DNA from: Planctomycetota bacterium
GTDB taxonomy: Bacteria; Planctomycetota; Planctomycetia; Pirellulales; PLA5
Direction: 5' to 3'
Length of the DNA stretch: 40,419 nt
Assembly (NCBI GenBank): GCA_003576845.1
Contig: QEVJ01000055.1
Span: forward strand, 1 to 40,419
In this document: in pieces, positions 9,764-24,482 of the stretch
Layout of the letters: the number at the start of each line of letters is the position of its first letter
How positions within the stretch are numbered: position 1 is the first letter of the stretch
Made by a program: the position numbers and the translations under genes
Notes under the pieces: model-generated
Databases searched by the model: none
What the model was told of the DNA's origin: nothing
The model's input: the letters and a program-made list of their open reading frames with translations, nothing else

Positions 9764-11446
9764 CTAGTTGCCGGTGAATTCCGGATAGCCGTGCGCACCC
9801 ATCTCCGGTCGATCCAAGCCTTCGACCTCGTCGGCTTCGCTAACACGAATTGGAAAGATCATGTCGCTGAGCTTGAACCAAACGTAAGCCATCACGAAAC
9901 CGAACACGACGACGACGACGCAGGAGAGCGCCTGGGCTTTGATTTGGCCCCAGTCGCCGGCGACGATCCCCGCGACGGGTCCGTCGACCTTGTTCCAGCC
10001 GCCGCCGTACTTGCCGTTGGCAAAGATCCCCAGCGACAGCACGCCCCAGAGACCGTTCACGCCGTGAACCGAAATGGCGCCGACCGGATCGTCGATTTTG
10101 AGTTTCTCCCAGAAGAAGACGCTGAGCACGACGAGCACGCCGGCGACGGCCCCAATCACGACGGCCGCCCAAGCGTCGACGAACGCACAAGGCGCGGTGA
10201 TGGCGACAAGGCCCGCCAACATGCCGTTGCACATCATCGTCGGGTCCGGCTTGAGTCCCTTGGCATAGAGCGTGAGCATCGACGCGATCGCGCCCATGAT
10301 GCCCGCCAGCATCGTGTTGACGACGACAAAACTGATTCGCAAGTCGGTTCCCGATAGGGTCGAGCCGGGATTGAAGCCGAACCAGCCGAAGGCGAGGATG
10401 AACGTGCCGACGATTACCATTGGGACGTGGTGCGCAGGAATGGGATGGGGTTTTCCGTCCCTGAACTTACCGCGGCGCGGTCCGATGCAGAGAGCGCCGG
10501 CCAGGCCGATGACGCCGCCCATCGCGTGGACGACGCCGGAACCGGCGAAGTCGACGGCGCCGTGGCCAAAGCCCCAATTGAGACCCGCCTGTGCGAGCCA
10601 GCCGCCTCCCCAGACCCAATTGGCGTAAAAGCAGTACGGCAAAGCCACCCACAGCGCATAGATGCAGAAGTTCTTCCAACTCCAGCGTTCGGCCATCGCG
10701 CCCGTCGGAATGGTCGCGGTGGTGTCCATGAATACCATCATAAAGAAGAACAGGGCCATGACGCTGACGTCGTCGAGGCCATTGAGGAAGAAGCCTTTTG
10801 TGCCCATCAGGCCGTATTTGTACGTGCCATCGGGCTTGCCTTCCGGGGTCATGCCTGGTTCGAGGCCGATTCCTTCATTGAGGACGGCGGTGCCGGGGCC
10901 GAGCGTTGAAACCCAGCCGGGCGCGACGGGCGCGTTCCACCAATTGCCCCAGCCGATGGCGAATCCGTAGGCGAAGAACGCGAGGCAGCCAAGTGGATAA
11001 ACCATGAAGTTCATACTTGCCGTGTGAGCGGCGTTCTTCGCGCGGCACAGGCCGACTTCGACCATGCAAAAGCCCGCCTGCATGAACATGACGAGGAAGC
11101 CCGTGATGAGCGTCCAGACCATGTTGATCGAGAAGAAGTTGTGGGCGATACGGTTGTAGAGATCGGTTTTCGAGAGCGTTTCCGGATCGGGATCGCCACC
11201 GGTTGCGGGTACGATGCCGGCGCCCGCTCCACCGCCAGTTGGATCGGGTGTCGGATTGCCGGAGAAATACGCCGTTGGCGACGGCGTCGCAGGATCGGCG
11301 GCAGGCGCGGGGGAAGACGCCGACTCTGCGGCGGCAGGCGCGTCTTGCGCGAGCGCCGGGATTACATCCAAGAATACCGTCGTGCCCGTCAACACGGCGA
11401 GCGCGACCCATAACGAAAGCCATCGACTACGCAAGATCGCAAACAT
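9764..11446 (-). CDS. amt: Ammonium transporter, Amt family
   Basis: 560 residues with a signal-like N-terminal helix, an Ala/Pro/Gly-rich linker of about 60 residues, and then the eleven-helix Amt core. Diagnostic parts are NMVWTLITGFLVMFMQAGFC, EVGLCRAKNAAHT, DFAGSGVVHAMGG and ISVHGVNGLWG; the last two carry the conserved pore histidines. It conducts ammonium (as NH3 plus H+ or NH4+) across the inner membrane. The C-terminus (EADEVEGLDRPEMGAHGYPE) is the cytoplasmic regulatory tail seen in Amt proteins controlled by PII, but no glnK gene lies next to it. The start has AGGTGA eight bases upstream. The long linker makes it longer than the usual 400-450 residue Amt. Confidence 0.96.
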   Translation of the reverse strand: MFAILRSRWLSLWVALAVLTGTTVFLDVIPALAQDAPAAAESASSPAPAADPATPSPTAYFSGNPTPDPTGGGAGAGIVPATGGDPDPETLSKTDLYNRIAHNFFSINMVWTLITGFLVMFMQAGFCMVEVGLCRAKNAAHTASMNFMVYPLGCLAFFAYGFAIGWGNWWNAPVAPGWVSTLGPGTAVLNEGIGLEPGMTPEGKPDGTYKYGLMGTKGFFLNGLDDVSVMALFFFMMVFMDTTATIPTGAMAERWSWKNFCIYALWVALPYCFYANWVWGGGWLAQAGLNWGFGHGAVDFAGSGVVHAMGGVIGLAGALCIGPRRGKFRDGKPHPIPAHHVPMVIVGTFILAFGWFGFNPGSTLSGTDLRISFVVVNTMLAGIMGAIASMLTLYAKGLKPDPTMMCNGMLAGLVAITAPCAFVDAWAAVVIGAVAGVLVVLSVFFWEKLKIDDPVGAISVHGVNGLWGVLSLGIFANGKYGGGWNKVDGPVAGIVAGDWGQIKAQALSCVVVVVFGFVMAYVWFKLSDMIFPIRVSEADEVEGLDRPEMGAHGYPEFTGN

Positions 11447-12137
11447 ACATCAAGTCACCTAACGTCCTTTCCTGAAGAAATCGTCGCTCGGCCGACCGCA
11501 CTCGGGAGCGATTGCGGAACCAATCCCGCGGCACACAGGCGCCGCAACGGATCGGCCGGGAGAGGCGACGAAGCGAGAGCAAACGAGACGCGACAATTAA
11601 GCCGCTCGACGAAAGAACGCCGAACACCGTGGCCGGCGGCACTCGATAGCGATCGGCACGCGGCCGTTGCCCGCCGGGCCGAATCCGCCGCCGCGCGAGG
11701 CGGCGGCGGATACGGACCCACGCGGTTCCCACCTATCACTACGCGTTGCCCGGCGCACGTCGTCAGCGAGCGCCGAGCGTCTGTACGACGCCGAGGGAGT
11801 CGGAACATTGCGGCCGCCTAAGGTTTCGGATAGGGCGGCAGATAGCAAGCGTCGTGCCACGAATTGGCGTTCCGTTCGTTAAGCGGCGCGACGCGCGGTT
11901 TTATTCGGCACTTTGCGGCATTTGGGGCGAAATGGTATTCCGTCGCATGATTCGACCGCGATGTCGTGCCGCGTATGCGGGCAAGCGGTGTTGCGCCGCC
12001 GCGCAATGCTCGCTGCGATTCGGATGCGTTTCGGAGCAACGCAAAGGACCGAAGCCAGGTCCGAGTCCCTTCGCACTCTTCGCCATTGACCGATGGCCCG
12101 CGAACGGCCCCATCCGACAAGAATTGGTGCGAAGTAA
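11447..12137. other. Intergenic region upstream of amt, no gene seen
   Basis: About 690 bases between divergent amt and the membrane protein/XRE pair. It contains a perfect 12-bp GC-rich hairpin at 11683-11711 (ATCCGCCGCCGC, loop GCGAG, GCGGCGGCGGAT). No sigma-54 type GG...GC promoter could be recognised before amt. Short open frames show no family resemblance. Confidence 0.55.
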
Positions 12138-13671: not shown

Positions 13672-14745
13672 CTATTTGATCCCCGCCCCCGGCCGGACCG
13701 CGTCGCGAAGCGGCGCTCCGGGATGCCGGGCCATTTTGTTCATCAACACTCTTGCATCGTCGAGGATCGGCCGAAGCTGCTCGGTCGCCTCTTCGACGTT
13801 GCGGGCCGCGCGGTTCAGGCTTTGGTAGAGATCGGGGTTGTTGAGCAACTCGCCGACGGTGCCTTTGCTGCTGTTGATGGTTTTCGAGAACGCGACGAGC
13901 TGGGCCAGAAGCTGGTCGATCTTCTCGACGCTGCCGGCCATGCGAACGACGATCTGATCGCCGCGTTCGCCGAGCGGGCCGGTGAACTTCGTGAGGTTCG
14001 CCAGGTTCTTGTCGGCCAGTTCGATCGTCTGTTGGACGCGTTGGAAGGTGGCCCGCGATTCGTCGAGCATCTTGGGCAGATCGGCAAGCGATTTCTTGAG
14101 GCCGGCTTGAATTTCTTCGTCGCCCGCGATCTTCTGGACGTTGTCCATCGCCCGGTTGAAGCTGACGAGCGCCTTTTCGGTCTGGCCCATCACGCGCTCG
14201 ATCTGGTTGTCGTTCTGATCGAGGATGCGGTTGAGGTTGTTGGCGAGCGTGCCGATGTCTCGGCCGGCCTGGTTGAAGGTTTGGATTGCGGAGGAGAACT
14301 CGCCCTTGAGGTCCGCGAAGACTTCGAAGGGATCGGAGACGACGATGCCGTCTTCGATGACGTCGCCGTCGGCGTAAAAGCCCGGCTCGGCCTTCTTGGG
14401 TCCCATAACGAACTCGATCACGGCGTCGCCCAAGAGTCCGCCTTTGATTTGGGCCCGTTCGGAGAGGCGGAGCTTGACGTCGTCGTGAATGCCCATCGTG
14501 ACGATGACGCTGCCGTCGTCGGCGAAGCGGACATCGGTCACGCGGCCGATGAGGATGCCGCTCTTGCGGACGGGCGTGTCCTTGGTGACGCCGGGTGCCC
14601 GCTCGAACTTGGCTTCGAGCTCGTACGTCGGCCGCCCAAAGCCGAGTTTGGGCACCTCGCCCATCACGACGAGCAAAATAGCGCCGATGATGATGGTGGC
14701 CAGCACCATCACACCGACGCGGAATTGCATGAGGCGGTCGTCCAT
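13672..14745 (-). CDS. mlaD: MlaD-family (MCE domain) lipid-transport substrate-binding protein
   Basis: 357 residues: an N-terminal membrane anchor (QFRVGVMVLATIIIGAILLV), a single MCE domain (about residues 38-115; TYELEAKFERAPGVTKDTPV, then RKSGILIGRVTDV), and a long helical C-terminal region with repeated Asn/Leu heptads (SAIQTFNQAGRDIGTLANNL). MlaD-type proteins form a hexameric ring that moves phospholipids between the inner-membrane ABC transporter and the outer membrane. It is the last gene of the leftward operon mlaE-mlaF-(four-helix bundle)-mlaD, but is separated from mlaF by the four-helix bundle gene and a repeat array. The helical tail may form the periplasmic needle or coiled coil (inference). 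Confidence 0.93.
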   Translation of the reverse strand: MDDRLMQFRVGVMVLATIIIGAILLVVMGEVPKLGFGRPTYELEAKFERAPGVTKDTPVRKSGILIGRVTDVRFADDGSVIVTMGIHDDVKLRLSERAQIKGGLLGDAVIEFVMGPKKAEPGFYADGDVIEDGIVVSDPFEVFADLKGEFSSAIQTFNQAGRDIGTLANNLNRILDQNDNQIERVMGQTEKALVSFNRAMDNVQKIAGDEEIQAGLKKSLADLPKMLDESRATFQRVQQTIELADKNLANLTKFTGPLGERGDQIVVRMAGSVEKIDQLLAQLVAFSKTINSSKGTVGELLNNPDLYQSLNRAARNVEEATEQLRPILDDARVLMNKMARHPGAPLRDAVRPGAGIK

Positions 14746-14750
14746 GGCCG

Positions 14751-14785
14751 GGGGTCGGAAGTCAGGGGTCAGGTGTCAGGGAGTA
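14751..14785. repeat. 7-bp repeat array (GGGGTCA class), left of four-helix gene
   Basis: Units GGGGTCG, GAAGTCA, GGGGTCA, GGTGTCA, GGGAGTA in exact 7-bp phase. The stop codon of the four-helix bundle gene (TGA, 14776-14778 on minus) is inside the array. It is the reverse complement of the class found at 15181-15229. Confidence 0.85.
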
Positions 14786-15150
14786 GAGTTTCGACGTCCC
14801 AACGAGTTCATTAGGCCGTTGAGCATCCGGCCGACTTCGTCAGTTTGGATTTGTAGGCGGTCATGCACGACCTTGTCCAGGAATCGGAGCCGATGAGCAA
14901 GTTCGAGGTGGGTTTGGAGTTCGCAGAGTGAACCATAAGCGATCGCGAGAAAGTTGATGAACTCGCGCGTTCCCTTGCGGCCACGGCCTTCGGCAATGTT
15001 CGAAGGTATATTGACTGCACAACGTCGCGTTTGGCTCGTAAGTCCATACAACTCAGACGACGGGAATGAGCCGGTCGCCGCGTAGACGGCTTCCACAAGC
15101 CGCATCGCTTGTTGCCAAACGTCCAAGTCGCGATAGCTCTGAATTGCCAT
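14776..15150 (-). CDS. Four-helix bundle protein (23S rRNA intervening-sequence family)
   Basis: 124 residues, start ATG 15150 with AGGA seven bases upstream. Motifs are diagnostic for the IVP/TIGR02436-like family: YRDLDVWQQAMRLVEAVY, FPSSELYGLTSQTRRCAVNI, PSNIAEGRGRKGTREFINFL, AIAYGSLCELQTHLELA. Family members form pentameric four-helix bundles; some are encoded in insertions of 23S rRNA genes and a branch (Avd) serves diversity-generating retroelements, but the general function is unknown. Here the gene sits inside an otherwise standard mla operon, between mlaF and mlaD, bracketed by oppositely oriented 7-bp arrays. This looks like an insertion and not like an ancestral operon member. No reverse transcriptase or variable repeat is seen. 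Confidence 0.93.
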   Translation of the reverse strand: MAIQSYRDLDVWQQAMRLVEAVYAATGSFPSSELYGLTSQTRRCAVNIPSNIAEGRGRKGTREFINFLAIAYGSLCELQTHLELAHRLRFLDKVVHDRLQIQTDEVGRMLNGLMNSLGRRNSTP

Positions 15151-15165
15151 GGAGTTCCTATAAGG

Positions 15166-16014
15166 TTAGTTAGTGCCGTTCGAGCCCCGACCCCTGACCC
15201 CCGACCCCTGATCCCCGACCCCTGCCTCGCCGCGCACGAACTGCCCGACGCGCTCGTCGCGTGCCGACTCGATTCTTCCCGGCTCGCCGTCGTAGAGGAT
15301 TTGGGGTTCATCGCCTGCGAGCCTCGCTACGGGATAGAGCATCACAATTCGGTCCGCGACCTTTTGGGCGACGCGCATGTCGTGCGTGACGACCACGCTC
15401 GTGATCGGGTGTTTCTTCCGAGTTTCGAGGATCAGTTCGCCGATCACGTCGCTCATGATCGGGTCGAGACCGGTCGTCGGTTCGTCGTAAAGCAGGATGT
15501 CCGGGTTCATCGCAAGCGCCCGGGCAAGGCCGACGCGCTTCCGCATACCGCCCGAAAGCTCGGCGGGCTTCTTCGGCATTACGTCGGGCGCAAGGCCCAC
15601 CTCGCTCAGCCGCGCCAGCACGACCTCGCGAATCTCGTCATCGGTCATCTCCGTATGTTGCCGCAGCGGAAACGCCACGTTCTGCTCGATCGACAAGCTG
15701 TCGAACAGGGCAGCGTTCTGAAACACAAAGCCGAAACGAATCCGCTGCCGCGTAAGTTCCTTTTCCGAAAGTTGCTGAAGATTCTTCCCATCGAACAACA
15801 TTTCGCCGCTCGTCGGTGCGACGAGACCGATCATCGTCTTGAGGAACACCGTCTTTCCGCACCCGCTTTCGCCGATGATGGCCAGCGTCTGCCCCCGCGG
15901 CACGACGAGGTCGATGTCGCGCAACACAGTCTGCGCGCCAAACGACACTCCCAATCCGCGAGCCTCGACCAGCGGCTTATCCTGAATGTCCTCGTTGCCC
16001 GACTCCCGCGCCAT
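15166..16014 (-). CDS. mlaF: MlaF-family ABC transporter ATP-binding protein
   Basis: 282 residues from ATG 16014. Complete ATPase: Walker A GESGCGKT (residues 48-55), Q-loop VFQNAALFDSLSIEQNVAF, signature LSGGMRKR (153-160), Walker B LLYDEPTTGLDP and switch VVVTHDM. The motifs FVFQNAALFDSL and MRKRVGLARALAM are typical of MlaF, the energising subunit of the MlaFEDB phospholipid transporter. Its last 20 residues are odd: residues about 263-278 (EAGVGDQGSGVRGRGS) are translated from the 7-bp array at 15181-15229, so the conserved protein has gained a low-complexity Gly/Arg tail. It lies 56 bases downstream of mlaE and 15 bases upstream of the four-helix bundle gene. Confidence 0.95.
   Translation of the reverse strand: MARESGNEDIQDKPLVEARGLGVSFGAQTVLRDIDLVVPRGQTLAIIGESGCGKTVFLKTMIGLVAPTSGEMLFDGKNLQQLSEKELTRQRIRFGFVFQNAALFDSLSIEQNVAFPLRQHTEMTDDEIREVVLARLSEVGLAPDVMPKKPAELSGGMRKRVGLARALAMNPDILLYDEPTTGLDPIMSDVIGELILETRKKHPITSVVVTHDMRVAQKVADRIVMLYPVARLAGDEPQILYDGEPGRIESARDERVGQFVRGEAGVGDQGSGVRGRGSNGTN
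15181..15229. repeat. 7-bp repeat array (CGACCCC/TGACCCC), seven units, inside 3' end of mlaF
   Basis: CGAGCCC, CGACCCC, TGACCCC, CGACCCC, TGATCCC, CGACCCC, TGCCTCG. It is in frame with mlaF on the minus strand and encodes that protein's tail. Orientation is opposite to the array at 14751-14785, so the two bracket the four-helix bundle gene as inverted repeats. Confidence 0.9.
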
Positions 16015-16027
16015 AGCCCAATGCTTC

Positions 16028-16069
16028 CCCGAATCCCGAATCCTCCCCGACCCCTGACCTCCGACCCCC
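16028..16069. repeat. Mixed 7-bp repeat array between mlaE and mlaF
   Basis: CCCGAAT, CCCGAAT, CCTCCCC, GACCCCT, GACCTCC, GACCCCC. Two unit classes (CCCGAAT and GACCCCT) meet in one array without loss of the 7-bp phase. It begins one base from the mlaE stop (16071-16073) and ends 13 bases before the mlaF start. Confidence 0.85.
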
Positions 16070-16070
16070 G

Positions 16071-16961
16071 CTACATCATTTTCATCCCCTCCGGCCAGAT
16101 CGAATTGTAGACCGCGTCCAAAAACACGCCCAAACCGAGATCGAGGACGAGGATGATGACGAACGAGTAGACGAACGCGGTCGTGGCCGCACGGCCGACG
16201 CCTTCGGCGCCCGCGTCGCAGTGGAAACCGCGATGGCAGCTTACCAGCGCGATCGCGATGCCGAAAAACAGGCTCTTGAACACGCCGCTGAAGATGTCGA
16301 AGCTTCCCACGTACTCTTCGCTGTTGACGAAGTAGTAGTGCATGTCGATGCCGAGCACGTGGACGCTGTAAAAATATCCGCCGGCCACGCCCATGAAGTC
16401 GGCCATGATCGTGAGCGACGGAATCATGAAGACGCAGGCCAAGAGCCGCGGCACCGCGAGGTAGTGAATCGGATTCGCGCCCATGCTGGCGAGGGCGTCG
16501 ATTTGCTCGGTGACGCGCATCGTGCCGAGTTCGGCGGCCATCGCGCTCCCGACGCGGCCGGCGAGCATCGTCGCCGCGAGCACGGGTCCGAGTTCGCGGA
16601 CGAGCGTCATGTTGATGACTGCGCCGAGCCGCGTTTCCAGATGCATCACGCGAAACTGCACGTAACTCTGCACGGCCAGCACCATGCCGATGAACGTGCC
16701 GGTGAGCGCGACGACGGGCAGGCTCAGCACGCCGACCTGATAGAAATTCGGCAGCAGCGTTTCCCGCCGCGGCCGGCGCGTGAGCATCCACCCGACGACG
16801 CGAAAGGAGAAGATCGTCATCCCGCCGACGGCCACGGCCCAATCGATCATCAGCTTGCCGAAGTCGGCGACGGCATCGGCACCCGCGCCCAACAGGCGCA
16901 GCAACAGCCCGGGACGACGAGGCTCCGCGTTGGCAGTGGCGGCGTTCATCGATGAGGACAT
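16071..16961 (-). CDS. mlaE: MlaE-family ABC transporter permease
   Basis: 296 residues from ATG 16961 (a second ATG four codons later is equally possible; a longer frame to 17048 would read into a palindromic repeat and is rejected). The permease core is typical of MlaE/YrbE: FYQVGVLSLPVVALTGTFIG, MVLAVQSYVQFRV, the coupling segment ELGPVLAATMLAGRVGSAMA, AELGTMRVTEQIDALASMG and AVPRLLACVFMIPSLTIMAD, then closing helices (TAFVYSFVIILVLDLGLGVF). It forms the inner-membrane dimer that works with MlaF and the MlaD ring in phospholipid trafficking. It is the first gene of the leftward operon, and its promoter region carries the composite palindrome at 16982-17154. Confidence 0.95.
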   Translation of the reverse strand: MSSSMNAATANAEPRRPGLLLRLLGAGADAVADFGKLMIDWAVAVGGMTIFSFRVVGWMLTRRPRRETLLPNFYQVGVLSLPVVALTGTFIGMVLAVQSYVQFRVMHLETRLGAVINMTLVRELGPVLAATMLAGRVGSAMAAELGTMRVTEQIDALASMGANPIHYLAVPRLLACVFMIPSLTIMADFMGVAGGYFYSVHVLGIDMHYYFVNSEEYVGSFDIFSGVFKSLFFGIAIALVSCHRGFHCDAGAEGVGRAATTAFVYSFVIILVLDLGLGVFLDAVYNSIWPEGMKMM

Positions 16962-16981
16962 AAAGTGGGCAGTGGGCAGGC

Positions 16982-17154
16982 GTAGGTCAGGCCAAGCGGC
17001 GTAGGACGTTGCCATCTTCGCAACCGTTCGTCCGCGCCGGCCTGACACAGCGGCGCAACGGCAGATCGAAAGCCCTTTGACGCCTCTACGTCAGGCCGGC
17101 GCGGAAACAGTCGTTCGAGAACGGTCGCATCGATCGCCGCTTGGCCTGACCTAC
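16982..17154. repeat. Composite palindromic element A (two inverted 65-bp arms)
   Basis: The outer ends GTAGGTCAGGCCAAGCGGCG (16982-17001) and its exact complement (17135-17154) form a perfect 20-bp inverted repeat. The inner ends TCCGCGCCGGCCTGAC (17031-17046) and complement (17090-17105) form a perfect 16-bp inverted repeat. Each arm is 65 bp with a 29-bp variable middle, and each arm is itself an imperfect hairpin because GTCAGGCC and GGCCTGAC occur at its two ends. The arms are separated by 43 bp. A second copy of this design occurs at 24596-24748. It resembles paired REP (BIME-like) elements and abuts a short AGTGGGC repeat (16964-16980) before mlaE. Confidence 0.9.
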
Positions 17155-22923: not shown

Positions 22924-22979
22924 TAGGGATGAGGATTGAGGACCGAGGATCGAGGATTGAGGATCGAGGATCGAGGGTC
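22924..22979. repeat. 7-bp repeat array (GAGGATC class), eight units
   Basis: TAGGGAT, GAGGATT, GAGGACC, GAGGATC, GAGGATT, GAGGATC, GAGGATC, GAGGGTC in strict phase. It lies 70 bases upstream of the aminotransferase start and faces the array at 23002-23092, which has an unrelated unit. Confidence 0.9.
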
Positions 22980-23001
22980 TGGAGCATTCGGGTCGCTTTG
23001 C

Positions 23002-23092
23002 CTCTAACCTCCAACCCCCAACCTCCAACCTCCAACCTCAAACCTCCAACCTCAAACCTCCAACCTCAAACCTCCAACCCCCAACCTCTAAC
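23002..23092. repeat. 7-bp repeat array, thirteen units (CTCCAAC class), the longest in the window
   Basis: Thirteen consecutive units without a phase break: seven CTCCAAC, three CTCAAAC, two CTCTAAC variants at the ends and CCCCAAC copies. The leftward PqaA-like gene ends directly against it: its TGA stop (23096-23094) falls in the next unit, CTCACTT. Alternation of CTCCAAC and CTCAAAC between 23030 and 23078 suggests a 14-bp duplication step. Confidence 0.95.
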
Positions 23093-23093
23093 C

Positions 23094-24482
23094 TCACTTC
23101 CCGCCGCCGCCCGTCGCGGTCTTGCCGTTGCCGATGATGCGGACGTTGGTGGAGAGAAAGAACGGCGCGCTGGGTCCCTGGTACTCGGCCTCGCCGAACA
23201 TGGCCGCGTAGCCCTCGCTCGGCATGTCGAGTTCGTGTGCGTACTTGTCGCCGTCGCGACGGACGATCCGCGAGGTCCATTGCGAATCGCGGAAATCCTT
23301 GGTCTTGCTCTTCGCCATCCACACGCGCACGTTCTTCGGCGCGACGTTGCTCTCGACCGCCAGCGCCAATCCGTCGTCCGACGAATCGAGCTTCCAATTC
23401 AGTTTCGGCAGCGTCGCATTCTCGACGACGCGACGGTGAATCGCGGCCAGCCCACCGGACACCCGAGCGACGTCGATCGGTCCGCCCTTGGGATTCAACC
23501 CGTGTCCGGCGTTCGGCACGTACACGATGTACTTCTCGCCTTCGAGCGCGTCCCAATACAGGTTGAGCGCATCGAGCGGCCAGTAACGGTCATTGGTCCC
23601 GAGCAACAGGAGCTTCGGTTGCGTGAGTTGCTTGCGATAGCTATACGGGTCGGTAATCAGATTGAGCAGCTTGCCCCGTTCGCTGTCGAGCATCTTGAGT
23701 AGACCGCGCTCGGAATAGTCGCGAATCTGCTCGGAAGGCCCGCCGAACGACTCGATCTGATGCCGCATCTGGGCGTTCGTGTTGAGCATGTCGATGACCA
23801 TCGGGGCAATGGCGACGGCCCGCGGATCGACCGCGCCAGTGAGCCACGTCGTCCAGCCGCGTTTCGACGCGCCGGTGATCGTGAACTCCTTGAGGTTCAG
23901 CTTCCACTGTTTGGCGGCGAATTCCTGCGTCGCGTCCATGCCGCGGACCGCGCTCTTGACCATCGGCAACAAGAGCGGCCATTCCGTATCGCCCGTCTTC
24001 ATGAAGTTCACGAACGTCTCGGCGATCGCGTCGTCTTCGTAGCGGCCGCCGAGGATCGGCTGATGCGGCACTTGCAGCAAGATCGCGACCGGCGTCTTGA
24101 GTTGTTCGGCCAGCGCGACGAAGATCGGCGCTTCCTTGGGCAGCTTGTCGCGGTCGCCCGCGGGACCGGCGAGTTCCGGCTTCCACGCTCCGCCCGTGAT
24201 GAACAGCATCGCGTGCTTGGCGTCGTCGGGGACGCTCGCCGGGCGGAGGACGAACAATTGATGTTGCCACACCACGTCGCGCCAGGTTTGCGACGTGAGC
24301 GTCAGCTCGACATACTTCGCCCCCAGGATTTCGCCTTCGCGGCGCTTGGTCCACTTGTAGCTGGCGTCGGCCTTCTTGACGTATTTCAAGAGCGGCCCCT
24401 CCGCCGCGGCCTCCGCGGCAACACCGACCCGACCGACGAGCAATAAGACCATCGCCGCCAAAATCATCGCGCGCCCGATCAC
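23094..24482 (-). CDS. PhoPQ-activated pathogenicity-related (PqaA-like) exported alpha/beta hydrolase
   Basis: 462 residues from GTG 24482, with AAGGAG seven bases upstream. The signal peptide MILAAMVLLLVGRVGVAAEA directs export. The PqaA family pattern is clear: WRDVVWQHQLFVLRP, MLFITGGAWKPEL, PVAILLQVPHQPILGGRYED, ITGASKRGWTTWLTGAVDPR, PKLLLLGTNDRYWPLDALNL and YVPNAGHGLNP. The GASKRG element resembles a nucleophile elbow, with Asp in GTNDRYW and His in NAGHGL as the likely rest of a catalytic triad. Members are secreted hydrolases of unknown substrate, widespread in planctomycetes and known from Salmonella as PhoPQ-regulated; nothing here suggests virulence. Its stop codon is the edge of the thirteen-unit array. 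Confidence 0.88.
   Translation of the reverse strand: MIGRAMILAAMVLLLVGRVGVAAEAAAEGPLLKYVKKADASYKWTKRREGEILGAKYVELTLTSQTWRDVVWQHQLFVLRPASVPDDAKHAMLFITGGAWKPELAGPAGDRDKLPKEAPIFVALAEQLKTPVAILLQVPHQPILGGRYEDDAIAETFVNFMKTGDTEWPLLLPMVKSAVRGMDATQEFAAKQWKLNLKEFTITGASKRGWTTWLTGAVDPRAVAIAPMVIDMLNTNAQMRHQIESFGGPSEQIRDYSERGLLKMLDSERGKLLNLITDPYSYRKQLTQPKLLLLGTNDRYWPLDALNLYWDALEGEKYIVYVPNAGHGLNPKGGPIDVARVSGGLAAIHRRVVENATLPKLNWKLDSSDDGLALAVESNVAPKNVRVWMAKSKTKDFRDSQWTSRIVRRDGDKYAHELDMPSEGYAAMFGEAEYQGPSAPFFLSTNVRIIGNGKTATGGGGK

Follow-up and report, generated by a model that had tools for sequence, protein, structure and literature searches.

An IVP-Family Gene Inside a Tandem-Heptamer Hairpin in a Planctomycete mla Operon, and the Recurrence of Such Hairpins at IVP Genes

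Introduction

An excess of tandem 7-bp repeats has been reported in bacterial genomes for decades, with no agreed cause and with polymerase slippage as the standing guess. Three papers describe intergenic heptamers of this kind, including GGGGA(C/T)T of Nostoc and GGGAATC of Xanthomonas (PMC4692102), TAACTGA of the Beggiatoaceae (PMC4679880), and GGGACCG of Geobacter metallireducens (PMC2700814). A second puzzle is the IVP/S23p protein family, which has no known function. Both are met in a 40,419-nt stretch of planctomycete DNA (contig QEVJ01000055.1, here called the window), where an IVP gene lies between two genes of an mla operon and is bracketed by heptamer arrays. What kind of unit is this, and does the protein have anything to do with the repeats beside it? 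The comparisons described below join the two puzzles, in that IVP genes of many phyla are enclosed by heptamer hairpins, whereas the sampled IVP-free relatives have almost no arrays. In the open-licence literature no paper was found that links IVP genes generally to heptamer hairpins or arrays, beyond the heptamers of the Coxiella intervening sequence (IVS).

An IVP Gene between mlaF and mlaD

The IVP gene sits between mlaF and mlaD, with mlaE further upstream and all four genes on the minus strand. The components of the locus are as follows.

13672-14745, minus strand: mlaD (MCE domain, Pfam PF02470), downstream of the insert
14745-14786, minus strand: downstream arm, reading CCTGACACCTGACCCCTGACTTCCGACCCCCGG in coding orientation, its end adjoining the mlaD start codon (TRF, pairing with the upstream arm)
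14776-15150, minus strand: IVP gene, a PF05635 / TIGR02436 four-helix bundle protein of 124 aa (profile matches)
15181-15229, minus strand: upstream arm, heptamers GGGGTCR/GGGGATC on the coding strand, encoding the MlaF C-terminal tail GDQGSGVRGRGSNGTN (TRF, fold, translation)
15166-16014, minus strand: mlaF-type ATPase, its last codons after ...QFVRGEAG replaced by array (profile matches, translation)
16071-17048, minus strand: mlaE permease (PF02405 / TIGR00056)

The 124-aa product matches PF05635 (23S_rRNA_IVP) with an E-value of 1.6e-37 and 128.4 bits (cut-off 33.8) and TIGR02436 with an E-value of 1.6e-36 and 124.8 bits (cut-off 24), so that both scores exceed the curated cut-offs for family membership. 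Its stop codon, as judged by translation, falls within the downstream arm. A solved homologue is XCC0516 of Xanthomonas campestris (PDB 2gsc, E 2.5e-27), and the Xanthomonas IVP homologue is a homopentamer (PMC4990558). A PADLOC search for anti-phage defence components returned no match; an RNA-family scan of the window found only two tRNAs and no rRNA match; and tblastn of 50,697 phage records, a check for phage cargo, gave no match.

The protein is also a remote homologue of Avd (bAvd, 35.2 bits; phrog_3206, E 2e-9), which raises the idea that it is the accessory protein of a diversity-generating retroelement acting with a reverse transcriptase. Its scores fall under the Avd family cut-offs, however (35.2 against 40 for bAvd and 29.6 against 80 for DivGenRetAVD), and the presence of a reverse transcriptase does not track that of IVP. 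Since RVT_1 has no match in the window's own genome (G000, 99% complete), membership of such a retroelement is scarcely credible.

The Arrays Pair as the Arms of a Hairpin

The left array, at 14751-14781, is scored by TRF at 41 with period 14 and at 35 with period 7. The right array scores 56 with period 7 (15181-15222) and 73 with period 14 (15185-15224), and the two are reverse complements of one class. The left array is the weaker and lies under the strict array threshold used below; the left-to-right arm match nevertheless scores 37, exceeding the value of 28 that marks the 99th percentile for cross-locus pairs. Duplex energy of the arms is -72.5 kcal/mol. When 496 nt are folded as RNA, the arms form the closing stem, of about 40 bp, in both the minimum free energy and the centroid structures, and the loop contains the entire gene. 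The fold energy of -201.7 kcal/mol (z -4.5) was equaled by no shuffled sequence. The sequence-only reading of an IVP-type four-helix bundle gene between mlaF and mlaD, with inverted heptamer arrays on both sides, is therefore borne out by profiles, TRF and fold.

Heptamer periodicity extends beyond this gene. At a score of at least 12 the window contains 10 lag-7 arrays, while none of 30 Markov simulations yielded more than one. At a score of at least 14, lag 7 has six arrays and lags 4-6 and 8-13 have none. Three further features of this kind are not associated with an IVP gene.

16028-16070: heptamer array, CCCGAAT and CCCCGAC, in the mlaE-mlaF spacer (TRF)
832-922: heptamer hairpin, GTTGGAG arm at 832-862 and complementary arm at 887-922 (array scan)
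22927-23095: heptamer hairpin, GAGGATY arm at 22930-22976 and CCTCCAA arm at 23001-23095 (TRF, array scan)

The closest known counterpart is the IVS of rRNA genes. In Coxiella burnetii, the 23S IVS forms a stem that RNase III cuts internally, its loop carries an S23p ORF, and tandem heptamers (GACAGAT) lie upstream of the ORF in strain-variable copy number (PMC4990558). Like an rRNA IVS, the window element has an IVP/S23p ORF in the loop, terminal inverted repeats that form a stem around it, and a total length of about 430-490 nt. Unlike one, it is hosted by a protein operon, and it differs from the Coxiella IVS in that both arms are heptamer arrays and in that sister species have different heptamers. 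The shared anatomy suggests that the element works like an IVS, yet the defining location inside an rRNA gene is missing. The element is best read as a relative of the rRNA "intervening sequence" that resides in an operon, and it is fairly likely that the unit is an IVS-like hairpin element in a protein operon, with the IVP gene in the loop of a tandem-heptamer stem. If the element is transcribed as part of the operon, pairing of the arms would give a long stem of double-stranded RNA. This stem may then be cut by RNase III or a similar nuclease, as in 23S rRNA IVSs, and such cleavage would allow the insertion to be tolerated.

Heptamer Arms Recur at IVP Genes in Many Phyla

TIGR02436 genes are present in 26 of 39 genomes of the order. 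Their flanks were compared by matching the upstream flank with the reverse complement of the downstream flank, a best match score of at least 26 being counted as complementary arms. By this measure 42 of 43 IVP genes of the order have complementary arms, the corresponding rates being 2.3% for cross-locus pairs, 0.5% for random positions and 2/136 for control genes. For IVP genes drawn from many phyla the figure is 58/78, about a quarter falling under the threshold (cross-locus pairs, 2.6%; random positions, 1.6%; control genes, 4/190). In Cyanobacteria it is 13/15 and in Acidobacteria 9/10. Lag-7 arrays at both ends, under the strict threshold, occur at 10/43 IVP genes of the order and 16/78 from many phyla, against 0/408 and 2/570 control genes and about 0.1% of random positions, and the enrichment of such arrays that had been anticipated for this family is thereby confirmed. 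Period 7 is specific at the order's IVP genes, with lags 4-6 and 8-12 giving zero. A chance origin of the arrays is ruled out by the other lags, the Markov simulations, the random positions and the control genes. From these sequence comparisons the hairpin anatomy is seen to recur at most IVP family members in many phyla, and the occurrence of IVP genes in heptamer hairpins is more general than had been supposed.

Individual loci illustrate the range. On Nostoc edaphicum pNe_5 an IVP gene with GTAGGGA/TCCCTAC arrays lies between ribonucleotide reductase genes, and a type I-D CRISPR operon on plasmid pANA02 of Anabaena sp. 90 has one between its cas6 and cas4 genes (L276:1501-1869). The arms of a Luteimonas IVP gene (L146), CGGGAAT/ATTCCCG, are of the same class as the Xanthomonas repeat. 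Most upstream arms are G-rich when read on the coding strand. A few IVP genes among loci L075-L154 are flanked by 8-bp instead of 7-bp arrays (6 upstream, 8 downstream). At one Acidobacteria IVP gene (L250) long arrays of the same orientation lie on both sides (GAGCGCA/AAAGCGC), and there are no complementary arms.

Placement relative to neighboring genes is also biased. Based on simple ORF-based gene calls, with slightly different probe points for the baseline, IVP genes are co-directional with both neighbors in 22/41 cases in the order (baseline 31%, p 0.002) and in 51/69 cases across phyla (baseline 47%, p 7e-6). Such placement between operon genes, the stability of the folded stem, and the excision of 23S IVSs by RNase III (PMC4990558) would all be expected if the insertion were neutral or useful and selection kept the arms paired so that RNase III or a folding barrier separated the IVP message, the protein itself having an unrelated job. 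This account leaves unexplained both the 7-bp tandem units of the stems in unrelated phyla and the fact that IVP-less hairpins are found mainly in IVP-bearing genomes, and it is considered unlikely.

Arrays without IVP Genes and the Genome-Level Association

The majority of arrays in a genome have no IVP gene. When 128 arrays at a distance from the listed IVP genes were examined, a complementary array was found no more than 700 bp away for 54 of them, compared with 4 in random regions, and in 52 of the 54 the gap is below 200 bp. Only at L137 was the gap of IVP size (430-444 bp), and that pair proved to enclose an IVP gene that the list did not include.

These IVP-less arrays follow the presence of IVP genes elsewhere in the genome. 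In regions picked without regard to IVP, no array was found in 629 kb from 13 IVP-free genomes, as against 13 arrays in 372 kb from 8 IVP-bearing genomes, so that arrays occur in 0/13 and 4/8 genomes, respectively (p 0.012, genomes being unweighted for relatedness in this and the other genome-level statistics). More than 1.5 kb from IVP genes, the IVP-bearing genomes of the order hold 35 arrays in 595 kb. In Acidobacteria, IVP-bearing loci have 9 arrays in 117 kb, a density taken from the flanks of the IVP loci, and IVP-free genomes have 1 in 292 kb, which is a GC-rich run. The whole-genome pattern of one heptamer class is found in 16/26 IVP-bearing and 1/13 IVP-free genomes (p 0.0018). The reversed pattern is itself a heptamer class and was therefore left out as a neutral control; when both patterns are counted the figures are 20/26 and 1/13, both being absent from six IVP-bearing genomes. 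IVP count and pattern counts are correlated across genomes (Spearman 0.72). In Cyanobacteria a single repeat pattern gave 13/36 versus 1/14 (p 0.076), which is in the same direction and not significant. There is one exception: in genome G002 no IVP gene was detected, yet it contains some five arrays of the GGGGTCA type, of which the perfect ones (C1:406069, C2:78771, C6:173029, C10:38305) all lie on one strand.

Arrays and IVP genes thus co-occur across the genomes compared, and a long-unexplained class of bacterial 7-base repeats is tied to one protein family. The suggested link between this family and the production of 7-bp arrays gains genome-level support from these data; the case for IVP as the maker or spreader of the arrays is correlational, with G002 as its exception. 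The main rival is reverse causation, in which arrays could attract or shelter IVP genes. Heptamer hairpins would arise without IVP, by 7-nt polymerase slippage and arm-to-arm conversion, and IVP genes would survive best there, in harmless intergenic sites. The preponderance of arrays without IVP genes, the arrays of G002, and the slippage proposed for heptamers by earlier authors (as cited in PMC4679880 and PMC4692102) are in its favor. Slippage predicts arrays in IVP-free genomes, however, where the counts are those given above for the 13 genomes and for Acidobacteria. Matching, locus-specific arms at nearly all IVP genes of the order, with few IVP genes outside hairpins, also count against this rival. 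Reverse causation is rated as somewhat unlikely.

The preferred reading is that the IVP protein probably acts on heptamer hairpins. The pentameric protein may recognize them, as RNA stem or DNA cruciform, through their periodicity and not their sequence, and it may promote hairpin expansion, arm re-matching and spread. If so, IVP-less hairpins would be non-autonomous dependants. Stated in full, and put forward tentatively, the proposal is that IVP proteins create, expand and re-match 7-bp repeat hairpins as an element defined by unit length rather than by sequence. The IVP gene would be its autonomous form, and its dependants would be the heptamer hairpins scattered through the genomes of cyanobacteria, xanthomonads, planctomycetes and other bacteria. 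Both the origin of the arrays and the function of IVP become directly testable. REP/RAYT systems likewise combine a single transposase gene between inverted repeats with numerous repeat hairpins elsewhere in the genome that lack the gene. The likeness to the IVP elements is one of outline: no relation of IVP to HUH nucleases was detected, and the heptamer repeats vary, keeping only the 7-bp period. The published intergenic heptamers are similar in being 7-bp tandem units, some in inverted pairs, and differ in that the available portions of PMC4692102, PMC4679880 and PMC2700814 mention no IVP gene, whereas the window arrays bracket one.

Insertion into mla and Replacement of the Arms

In 20 of 20 fetched relatives from other families mlaE, mlaF and mlaD are contiguous and IVP-free, as expected of empty sites, and in both genomes (both species) of the window's genus an IVP gene is present at the mlaF-mlaD point. 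After ...QFVRGEAG the MlaF of relatives continues into a conserved tail, for example ERLMEMRE, whose place is taken by an array in the window. The mla IVPs of the two species are 71% identical and mutually closest in the set, with MlaE at 92% and MlaD at 88%. The arms are of different classes. Those of the sister species (G001) have CGGGATT/CCCGAAT on the inner side with GGGGTC remnants outside, and the window arms are of the GGGGTCR type. The G001 arms are complementary (duplex -85.9 kcal/mol), which indicates that both arms of the mla element changed heptamer together between the two species. At a second site, L015, the window's species has an IVP element and the same intergene of the sister species (G001:C595) has no IVP gene, holding a heptamer hairpin of another class.

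Heptamer sequence is locus-specific in general, differing between loci and between orthologues. Both arms are common to only 0.4-1.1% of IVP pairs at 40-59% identity and to 8.8% at 60-69% identity. Two IVP genes 2.5 kb apart on one locus (L023:8921-9244 and 11432-11752) are 73% identical and have different arm heptamers.

The ends of a transposon are normally conserved within a family. Inverted ends, empty mla sites and IVP-less short forms are all features that a conventional DNA transposon or MITE would show if its terminal inverted repeats were made of heptamers, but here the end sequence varies by locus and is rarely common to related IVPs. Moreover, IVP had no transposase-family match in the searched libraries, and no target duplication was seen at the elements, although array turnover would hide one. 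Fixed transposon ends are ruled out by the low sharing of arms among related IVPs, and a conventional transposon is a very improbable explanation. Of the earlier suggestion of a mobile cassette with inverted heptad ends, the inverted arms and the empty sites hold, and the ends are not fixed, the heptamer varying by locus and orthologue and most arrays standing apart from any IVP gene. The insertion patterns suggest that the IVP element is mobile, and no actual transposition was observed among the compared loci. Two Calothrix plasmids share segmental copies, which were rejected as a case of transposition because their shared annotation includes neighboring integrase genes and they look like a larger duplication.

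Two other features were noted in the genus. The 80-bp palindromic repeat TAGGGTGGGTCGAAC...GTTCGACCCACCCTA, at L012:10990-11071, is present dozens of times in the sister genome G001 and has the look of a separate, MITE-like element. Orthologous IVP genes with TAGG-type arms are present in both species (L013:10177-10482 and L018:9767-10072), and in both they appear, by visual inspection of the tRNAs, to lie amid tRNA genes.
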